The position numbers and the translations under genes are program-made. Below the pieces are notes generated by a model that saw only the letters and a program-made list of their open reading frames with translations, was not told where the DNA came from and ran no database searches. A stretch of 64,000 bases of DNA from Sneathiella limimaris. Its GTDB lineage: Bacteria > Pseudomonadota > Alphaproteobacteria > Sneathiellales > Sneathiellaceae. This document shows positions 52,679-54,535 of the stretch, piece after piece; position 1 is the first letter of the stretch; each line of letters begins with the position of its first letter. The DNA is taken from assembly GCF_012932565.1 (NCBI RefSeq), contig NZ_JABBYJ010000001.1, positions 2,170,001 through 2,234,000 of the forward strand. The letters run 5' to 3'.

Positions 52679-53479
52679 TCACTTTTCTGGGGAGGGAGTT
52701 CGATTTTTTCGGGAAGATCTGGCGTAAAGCCCTCTTGGCCGTTCTTGAGGAGTGCCCGGTGCAACAGCCAATTGGTAGTAGTCATTCCAGTCTTCGTTTG
52801 TGAAGTCGTCTATTGAGGCTATAGTCTCAAAATTATTCAGAGTTTTGTCCTGATAGGTGAGCCGTTCAACTGGCTGGACCTGAAAAAGAGGCATTTCTCG
52901 TTGGAAGAAAATAGGTTGATCAGTCTTTGTTAGGCGAAAATTCATGAAAAGTGGTCCGAACCACCTGTCCGTTTCAATGATACCTTCATAATGCTCATAC
53001 GTTTGATGACCCGGCAGATTGGCCGGCTTACGAACAAGGCTGCTCCAGCCAGGACGTGTTCTGGCGAAAAGGCCACTCCAAACTTTTAGGACACCAGGTT
53101 CAGGTGCAGCCGAAATAAATGGCGGTGCATAGCCCATAAGTTCTTTCGGGCAATGATCATCAAAAAAATCCGAAAAATAGGGGTATTGAGCAGCGCCTAG
53201 AGGCAACCAATCTTCGCATTCATCAAATTGCCAGAAAAGCTCTGACCCGGTCCAGAGAACCTGAAAATTCATAGGTGGAAAGATATACCATCCAAATGCA
53301 GATGCCGCTGTCATTGGTTCACAGTAGCGGAAGGCCCGTGTTGGAATTAAACCACCCGCAGATCGATCAGCTCTTTGAGGAAGAGGGGTGTCTTGAATGA
53401 GGCGATAGAACCGAATGAGGGGATCCGGAGCAGCATGCTGCTCCGGATCTGGTTTTTCCAATGTGGATTGGATACCCAT
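52679..53479 (-). CDS. DUF6065 family protein beside the repeat-peptide gene
   Basis: A 266-residue cytoplasmic protein of unknown function. Conserved-looking stretches are FGWYIFPPMNFQVLWTG, PEPGVLKVWSGLFARTRPGW and IIETDRWFGPLFMNFRLTKT, then PLFQVQPVERL. I recognise this as DUF6065. No catalytic motif I know is visible. It is rich in Trp, Phe and Tyr. It starts 18 bases after the stop of the GNMSPAFK-repeat gene on the same strand, so the two form a probable unit. An enzyme acting on the repeat protein is a natural guess but not shown. Confidence 0.72.
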   Translation of the reverse strand: MGIQSTLEKPDPEQHAAPDPLIRFYRLIQDTPLPQRADRSAGGLIPTRAFRYCEPMTAASAFGWYIFPPMNFQVLWTGSELFWQFDECEDWLPLGAAQYPYFSDFFDDHCPKELMGYAPPFISAAPEPGVLKVWSGLFARTRPGWSSLVRKPANLPGHQTYEHYEGIIETDRWFGPLFMNFRLTKTDQPIFFQREMPLFQVQPVERLTYQDKTLNNFETIASIDDFTNEDWNDYYQLAVAPGTPQERPRGLYARSSRKNRTPSPEK

Positions 53480-53497
53480 TTAGCAATCCCAGCTTCG

Positions 53498-53741
53498 TTA
53501 GATTTTAAAAGCAGGGCTCATATTGCCCAAACGTACCTTGTTGGAATTTTGGGTGGCTTTTTTGCTATCTTCAACTTTGAAAGCTGGGCTCATGTTACCA
53601 GTCCGTACTTTACCCTCGTCTCGAGTTGCAGACTGTTCAACTTTAAAAGCAGGGCTCATATTCCCAAGGCGAATATTTTTTTTATCAGATACTGACGCGT
53701 GTTTAGGGTCCACCTTAAATGCAGGGCTCATATTACCAAGT
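53498..53741 (-). repeat. Four dispersed 24-bp coding repeats in the small protein gene
   Basis: Each copy of GNMSPAFK is coded differently: glycine by GGT, GGG, GGT and GGC; asparagine by AAT or AAC; proline by CCT or CCA; alanine by GCA or GCT; phenylalanine by TTT or TTC. Only ATGAGC is unchanged in all four. The repeats are therefore old or kept by selection on the peptide, not fresh DNA duplications. Confidence 0.85.
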
Positions 53742-53806
53742 TGGATCGACTTGCAATCTTTAGTAGCAGTTTTGATTTTTTGAGTGTTTGATTTAAGAGT
53801 AGCCAT
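53498..53806 (-). CDS. Repeat protein with four GNMSPAFK units
   Basis: A 102-residue soluble, basic protein with no signal peptide, no Trp and no Tyr. Residues 24-31, 48-55, 70-77 and 94-101 all read GNMSPAFK; each is preceded by (I/V)(Q/R)(L/T) and followed by V or I. The starts are 24, 22 and 24 residues apart, with variable Lys/Ser/Thr/Asp-rich spacers. The last copy ends the protein. A 20-residue N-terminal stretch with one Cys (C18) precedes the repeats. ATG 53806 has a strong ribosome site (AAGGAAG). The pattern fits a multi-core peptide precursor or a repeated docking motif. I know no family for it. Confidence 0.82.
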   Translation of the reverse strand: MATLKSNTQKIKTATKDCKSIQLGNMSPAFKVDPKHASVSDKKNIRLGNMSPAFKVEQSATRDEGKVRTGNMSPAFKVEDSKKATQNSNKVRLGNMSPAFKI

Positions 53807-54535
53807 GAGTGCTTCCTTTTCAGTTGTAGACTAGTAATTGCCTCTAAGAGGGTTGTTTTACTCGTTAGTTTTGTTCGTCAACATTTATGGCTTCAAGCTT
53901 TTCTGGCTTGAGTTGACATGAAACTAGGCAAGCTTATGAAAGCTCTCTCATTAATGTAAAGCTTAGGTGCGAGGCTGATTTTTGGGGAAGGGGAATTGGT
54001 GTTTATTCTTACTCAATTTCTAGTCTAAAATTATTTAAAACATTGTTTATAAATTATAATTTCCAATTTTGCGAAGATTGAAAACGAGATTTCTAGCTAA
54101 ATTAATATTTATTAAGTTTAGGAGAGCAGGGAGGGATTTAGACCAATTTCTTTTCTAATCACTTAAGATATTAACCATAAATCACTGGTCTCATTTTATG
54201 TTTAATATTTGGTGGAAAAGATTAAGTTACGGGCGATAGCGAATTTAAAAAAATGGACCTGACTTATTTGATATGCGCATGACATACTAATGTAACAACA
54301 CTAATTAATAGTAATTTAATGTAAGTGGTGTCGCCGAATAGGCTTGTTGATAGGGTTAGGTTTTGGATAGAGATTGAAGATCACAAATGCTTTTGATCAG
54401 TTTTTTATTGATCGACGATCTCTCAATCAAAATAAGCGATAAAATTTTTTTATTAATTGATTTTGAAATCTTTCTAATAGGATCGAATCTTCTTATTCAT
54501 CGAATAGAAAATTCGATCCTCGTAAACGGTCTTCA
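53807..54535. other. Long AT-rich gap without a gene
   Basis: 729 bases, the longest gene-free stretch in the window. It lies upstream of the repeat-peptide gene and downstream of the dehydratase gene, both leftward. A TTGACG (minus strand, near 53870-53880) may be a -35 box for the repeat gene, with a poor -10. An inverted repeat near its right end is given separately. No credible frame was seen. Confidence 0.6.
54479..54520 (-). terminator. Candidate terminator of the dehydratase gene
   Basis: AGGATCGAAT (54479-54488) pairs perfectly with ATTCGATCCT (54511-54520); the loop has a further small stem (TTC/GAA). It lies 15 bases beyond the stop codon of the leftward gene. The following bases (ATTAGAAAGATTT on the minus strand) are only partly T-rich. 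Confidence 0.55.

Follow-up and report, generated by a model that had tools for sequence, protein, structure and literature searches.

Two adjacent genes on the minus strand of the window (the whole 64,000-nucleotide stretch of DNA analyzed here, from Sneathiella limimaris, a marine bacterium not known as a pathogen) look like an undescribed pair of substrate and enzyme or of ligand and receptor. The first encodes a short protein with four copies of the octapeptide GNMSPAFK, and the second encodes a member of the DUF6065 family, as the sequence-only reading had described; both frames, their spacing and all four copies were recovered at the coordinates given in Table 1.

Table 1. Features of the repeat peptide-DUF6065 locus (positions in the window)
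Feature	Position	Strand	Remark
DUF6065 protein, 266 aa	52679..53479	-	PF19541, 18 bases downstream of the repeat gene
Codon of Cys53	53321..53323	-	Cys in 106/106 aligned DUF6065 proteins
Gene of the repeat peptide (102 aa, four units)	53498..53806	-	Units under purifying selection
Unit 1 GNMSPAFK, residues 24-31	53714..53737	-	
Unit 2 GNMSPAFK, residues 48-55	53642..53665	-	
Unit 3 GNMSPAFK, residues 70-77	53576..53599	-	
Unit 4 GNMSPAFK, residues 94-101, then C-terminal Ile102 only	53504..53527	-	
Intergenic stretch 5′ of the repeat gene, up to the dehydratase gene	53807..54535		

The four GNMSPAFK copies are not a product of chance. Their spacing is regular, with periods of 24, 22 and 24 residues (mostly 24 across the genus), and the stretches between them, initially read as variable spacers, are not free to vary: the wider unit is approximately KDxGxVRLGNMSPAFKV, with a 16-residue form of the KDSGKVRLGNMSPAFK type. 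Among the four copies in the window, silent sites are saturated (pS 0.77) and all eight residues are identical (pN 0.00); for 31 units pooled across eight of the nine Sneathiella loci, a set that omits locus L071, pS is 0.86, pN 0.08 and pN/pS 0.09. Saturation of the silent sites combined with zero amino acid change implies that each unit is under selection, and the wide silent divergence of copies with a fixed protein sequence implies that they are old and have been kept by selection. The small protein itself is probably unstructured, judging from modeling. Its matches in Pfam, NCBIfam and PHROGs (DUF4397, FeoC, ornithine cyclodeaminase and phrogs of unknown function) were dismissed as chance, being confined to short stretches and below the curated cut-off where one exists, and two matches of the repeat protein of locus L063, to a holin phrog (1.3e-7 across 25 residues) and to PBSX XtrA (31.1 bits, cut-off 29.7, 12 residues), were read as low-complexity matches. 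The start codon of the repeat gene is preceded by AAGGAAG. The promoter is presumed to lie in the intergenic stretch upstream, where no consensus promoter was found and where GC content falls to 28% at 54000-54499 vs. about 41-50% in the adjacent windows. Within the first part of the DUF6065 coding sequence, at 53421-53450, is a nearly perfect palindrome of 13 base pairs with a 4-base loop, which received a terminator-like score for the plus strand.

The DUF6065 protein of the window matches its Pfam profile well above the cut-off (59.3 bits vs. 26.6; 5e-16) and, up to an E-value of 1, matches no other Pfam profile, that of dUTPase included. It has no match in NCBIfam, no known family of modifying enzymes was found for it in either collection, and a sequence search of the PDB yielded no match. 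The structure model, built from 106 sequences, has a pLDDT of 89.4 and a pTM of 0.82, and a Foldseek search with this model retrieved 74 PDB chains at E ≤ 0.001 (best E 2.7e-5). Among the best 50 of these 74, 49 are named dUTPases and one (6h4c_G) bears a repressor title; in a viral structure library, uncharacterized phage proteins rank first and dUTPases next. The TM-scores are high by target length (0.48-0.78) and low by query length (0.32-0.38; rmsd 3.7-8.9), so the likeness covers the core of DUF6065, which is predicted to adopt a dUTPase-like fold, one known from enzymes of the nucleotide pool.

Sequence support for kinship with dUTPases is weak. In a single comparison, the 106-row DUF6065 profile was paired with 15 dUTPases (those of 25 fetched loci that passed a motif filter) at a probability of 21% and E 0.001; in this pairing the GTIDxDYRG segment of the dUTPases is aligned with GIIETDRWFG of DUF6065, which thus has IETD in place of IDxD. 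The smaller profiles A8, A3 and A4 gave no dUTPase match (0.2-0.5%). By eye, the RSG and GGFGSTG segments of the 15 dUTPases, which we take to be catalytic motifs, are absent from DUF6065. Thus, DUF6065 resembles the trimeric dUTPases (PF00692) in its predicted core fold and its GIIETD segment but differs from them in these absent motifs, in the lack of a Pfam dUTPase match, in being about twice as long and in being paired with a peptide. In addition to the invariant Cys53, an acid of the catalytic type at position 169 is conserved as Glu or Asp in 105 of the 106 aligned rows and Pro55 in 100 of the 106; the conservation of Cys53 and Pro55 is partly built in because both belong to one of the two search patterns from which most of the rows were obtained.

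Within the family of S. limimaris, the two genes have the same phyletic pattern. DUF6065 is found in 9 of the 25 genomes, all of which also encode the repeat peptide (E-values up to 6e-8), and the remaining 16 possess neither, an overlap with a chance probability of 1 in 2,042,975 if the genomes are treated as independent (hand arithmetic that ignores kinship). Repeat matches in four other genomes of the family, at E 0.2-0.6 and in three cases interrupted by stops, were taken as chance. At a completeness of at least 90%, 7 of 18 genomes encode DUF6065; four of the 16 genomes without the pair are 56-70% complete. The dehydratase gene that adjoins the pair is present in 21 of the 24 genomes of the genus (Sneathiella, to which the named locus L014 of S. 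glossodoripedis belongs), and the pair follows it in 9 of 9 carriers, that is, at one chromosomal site, with a TPR gene beyond the pair in the window. In all 12 testable genomes of the genus without the pair this site is empty: the dehydratase gene and the TPR-gene homolog stand side by side, the former ending within about 10 bases of the latter or overlapping it (at one such site, L310, the TPR gene alone is among the features listed). The site, either occupied or empty, indicates that the pair is present or missing as a unit.

Beyond the family, PF19541 proteins were detected in 45 of the 385 genomes of a class-wide sample (41 above the cut-off), with the type of the window in 4; in a phylum-wide sample, 16 of 398 genomes match, all below 28 bits save the window's own. 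The window's type was further found in 9 of the 75 genomes of family f66 (10 loci; three more genomes match weakly), on two Rhizobium plasmids and on ten IMG/VR contigs. An upstream peptide is encoded in 29 of 29 testable loci of this clade (9 from the genus, 10 from f66, one from Rhizobium and 9 from contigs), a set from which L294 (without upstream DNA), L359 (a near-copy of L077) and repeated loci from a single genome were left out; the regular expression behind this count was written once most of the peptides had been seen. Of the 16 clade loci collected first, an earlier expression recognized the peptide in 13, and in L063, L070 and L084 it is clear by eye. Loci fetched later with DUF6065 profiles comprise 4 contigs (L290-L293), of which this expression recognized 2 and the other 2 are again clear by eye, and 9 f66 loci, whose peptides were identified with a permissive pattern or by inspection.

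Upstream of 180 DUF6065 genes from outside the clade (101 canonical, 76 phage-type and 3 distant; 174 of them have at least 420 bases of upstream sequence), this earlier expression had no match, and the later core expression found no frame with at least two cores and one single match that resembles chance. DUF6065 proteins split into several groups, and the peptide is found with one: the proteins of the pair loci form a single group (SH-aLRT 98) in a tree of 29 pair rows (without L071 and with L294), 9 canonical and 6 phage-type sequences, obtained with a quick method that issued long-branch warnings, L077 included. Judging from these comparisons, the peptide rule is a property of this clade and not of DUF6065 at large; the canonical and phage-type proteins (phrog_7084) belong to the same Pfam family and share Cys53 in the alignment. 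A partnership between the small protein and the DUF6065 of the window, as suggested from the sequence alone, is supported by the 29 clade loci, none of which has lost the small frame while keeping DUF6065, and by the pattern in the family; as a rule for DUF6065 as a whole, the pairing with repeat proteins does not hold.

The repeat of L063 matched 8 of the 75 f66 genomes, of which 7 carry the pair; the eighth (G779) matches solely inside frames of 1323-2309 aa, the carrier G832 also has a match inside a 2959-aa frame, and the carriers G764 and G765 were missed. In the class-wide sample the repeat profile matched 4 of 385 genomes, namely three of the genus, themselves included in the profile, and G094, and missed the carrier G208. 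In G094, which belongs to another family, contig 17 (L364) encodes in its final 300 bases a two-unit peptide, GKVRLGDMAP[IG]F, 95 bases before the contig ends. By eye, this peptide gene is divergent from part of a frame of an S8-type peptidase, and a start codon behind a ribosome-site-like stretch stands just before the contig end. An annotated S8 peptidase also lies near the distant DUF6065 gene of a Sinorhizobium medicae plasmid (L078), where neither expression found a repeat peptide. The scan of viral contigs with the repeat profile gave 10 pattern matches and no relative, and that with one phage-type protein gave none; the frames returned by a self-repeat screen of the canonical loci were judged by eye to be simple repeats, in the wrong frame or unrelated. 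Six stretches of viral contigs (L181, L193, L195, L198, L219 and L233) contain two or three DUF6065 genes each, several of them in tandem.

The number of units varies widely within the clade, in support of the sequence-only reading. The clade peptides comprise 1-11 units of the form G-[GNM]-[ML]-[SAQ]-P-x-F, replaced by an RLP core in one subclade, and some precursors are just 30-60 aa long. Position 1 of 104 PxF-type units is occupied by G (101) or A (3), position 2 by G, N or M, position 3 by M, L or K, and position 4 by S (68 units), A (26), Q (9) or R (1). After P and a small or hydrophobic residue, the unit ends with F in 103 of the 104. These tallies are conditional on a core expression that fixes P and requires G or A in the first and F or L in the last position, so that odd units would escape. 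The unit period is nearly constant inside each locus and ranges from 10 to 29 residues between loci. A single unit is seen in 8 of the 29 loci, 6 with complete frames and 2 (L082 and L291) truncated where the contig begins, and two units in 4 further loci. In 20 of 21 PxF-type peptides the last 7-residue core ends 0-3 residues from the end of the peptide, the exception being L077 of Rhizobium with 9 more residues. Several f66 peptides, with starts chosen by eye, begin inside the first unit (e.g., MVKIGMMSPAF) and accordingly have no leader. The other core (e.g., GGGWRLP) is found on eight contigs, L084 having two copies and the remaining seven one each. For this type, a block of 14 codons chosen around the motif shows pS 0.70 and pN 0.21 in frame and the reverse relation (0.13-0.19 and 0.38) in the shifted frames, a codon-level signal that the motif block is under selection. 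Visible starts are preceded by a purine-rich, ribosome-site-like stretch.

A change in the partner accompanies the change in the core. Nine alignment columns separate the 4 RLP-type rows from the 20 PxF-type rows of alignment A8, which omits L071, and two of the nine are near Cys53: Pro55 and Tyr65, found in 20 of 20 PxF-type rows, are replaced by Ala and Trp, respectively, in 4 of 4 RLP-type rows and also in 5 of 5 contigs fetched later. This pattern hints at an influence of the peptide close to Cys53, although the co-change may reflect simple descent given that the RLP-type rows group together in the tree. In a fused, read-through model the peptide remained without order or secondary structure (pLDDT about 35-47); this model is a monomer that cannot show a trimer cleft, and contacts are not readable from its output.

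All five f66 loci tested with Pfam (L063, L354, L355, L356 and L358) have a gene for a BTAD-domain regulator adjoining the pair, with two divergent genes of this kind in L354; L353 and L357 encode a similar regulator by sequence. This neighbor (L063 and L353-L358) appears to be a BTAD/TPR regulator of the SARP type, and L085 contains a similar frame by eye. In the subset of the 29 loci examined for this, putative exporter genes are found near two: an MFS gene overlaps the end of the DUF6065 gene in Rhizobium L077, and an EamA gene follows the pair in L354. At the position of the MFS gene, Rhizobium WSM4643 (L359, 6888-7906) has two annotated hypothetical proteins. No third gene, protease or exporter accompanies the pair constantly across the nine Sneathiella loci. 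The pair loci L082-L086 lie beside frames that by eye resemble phage terminase and portal genes. Among 88 neighbor proteins of canonical and phage-type DUF6065 genes (a random draw from 352 candidates, then thinned), 2OG-Fe(II) oxygenases (8), family B DNA polymerases (3), dUTPases (2) and dCTP deaminase-like proteins (2) were seen, and no clear function emerges.

Given the linkage within the clade and the selection on the units, the units are taken to act either on DUF6065 or together with it. Our preferred reading, held at somewhat less than even confidence, is that the units dock in a cleft of DUF6065 as its dedicated substrate. The first gene of this two-gene module would supply a string of short units with no predicted structure, and the second a protein of the dUTPase fold whose cleft, around the motif-1 strand and Cys53, would bind them; we infer this binding from the residues near Cys53 that differ with peptide type. 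In a multi-unit precursor each unit would be both a recognition and a reaction site, with copy number setting the dose only. That DUF6065 then changes the units covalently or cuts them is the weakest step, and we know of no peptide-modifying protein with a dUTPase fold. A broader claim, that the pair represents a new class of peptide modification or a peptide-gated enzyme, with a dUTPase fold, a conserved Cys and a tandem array, lacking a leader in some lineages, in which every unit combines recognition and reaction, we regard as rather unlikely.

Multi-core precursors of ribosomally synthesized and post-translationally modified peptides (RiPPs) with their modifying enzymes are a known class, no single member of which was matched. 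The likeness consists in a small ribosomal repeat peptide, variable in copy number, directly before one dedicated larger protein; such a precursor gene stands beside its partner gene in 29 of 29 loci, the enzymatic role of the partner being putative. In contrast to that class, several members here are leaderless (starting with MVKIGMM), the core is conserved rather than variable, no known modifying-enzyme family was found, and the loci examined encode no constant protease or exporter. Several observations count against a substrate role: the core has no conserved reactive side chain, its Ser position being also occupied by Ala, Gln or Arg; leaders are missing from these peptides; the fused model left the peptide disordered; the genus loci have no constant third gene; the MFS gene is not annotated at the corresponding place in WSM4643; and as many as nine columns, not just 55 and 65, separate the peptide types.

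The closest competitor, possible if somewhat doubtful, is that the units remain unchanged and act as a ligand that occupies the cleft of DUF6065 and switches or inhibits an activity on a nucleotide-like molecule, perhaps by supplying in trans the lid that motif 5 forms in dUTPases. The predicted fold, the alignment of GIIETDRWFG with the dUTPase motif (21%, E 0.001, one comparison), the nearly invariant acid at position 169 and a core that is conserved rather than variable all suit such a role, as does the precedent of Stl, a protein inhibitor for which complexes with dUTPase have been solved, as judged from PDB titles. Stl is not a repeat peptide. It is named as a repressor in one report (PMC5794464). 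However, up to 11 near-identical units would hardly be needed for simple inhibition, profiles A8, A3 and A4 do not match dUTPases, and the genome has a separate dUTPase gene of its own elsewhere. The free copy number and the nearby exporters in two loci thinly favor the substrate over the ligand; the missing leaders and the lack of a constant reactive side chain or extra gene favor, also thinly, the ligand.

The original proposal that the small protein is a multi-core precursor or a scaffold has fared unevenly: precursors as short as 30-60 aa agree with its first part, and the second has been weakened. A multivalent scaffold, in which the repeat chain would link several DUF6065 trimers into an assembly, accords with a chain without predicted structure, with the very regular period inside each locus and with the dUTPases matched by Foldseek, which are trimeric. 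Nevertheless, it appears improbable, given the single-unit loci, the 4 loci with two units and a period that shifts between loci; the 6 complete single-unit members, in particular, argue against a scaffold and better suit a substrate. Still less probable is a toxin-antitoxin-like arrangement with a DUF6065 that is harmful unless blocked by the peptide: the order of a small gene and its partner, their presence or absence as a unit and the phage-like frames beside several contig loci (by eye) would fit, but PADLOC returned 0 matches for 5 proteins, the single chromosomal site in the 9 genus carriers is closer to an inherited than to a roaming gene, and the range of copy numbers is unlike antitoxins, none of which to our knowledge shows such a range.

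The literature searched, a corpus thin in subscription papers and preprints, contained nothing on DUF6065; co-mentions of dUTPase and RiPPs and the papers matching the core strings were unrelated by title, and none of the papers on dUTPase-like folds concerned DUF6065 by title. The pair offers a handle on one branch of the DUF6065 family, to which no function has been assigned, and brings together the dUTPase fold and a dedicated partner peptide. Should DUF6065 change the peptide, the pair would represent a new enzyme fold acting on ribosomal peptides, with a compact substrate of freely varying copy number; if it is left unchanged, the pair would be a new example of peptide control over a dUTPase-like protein.
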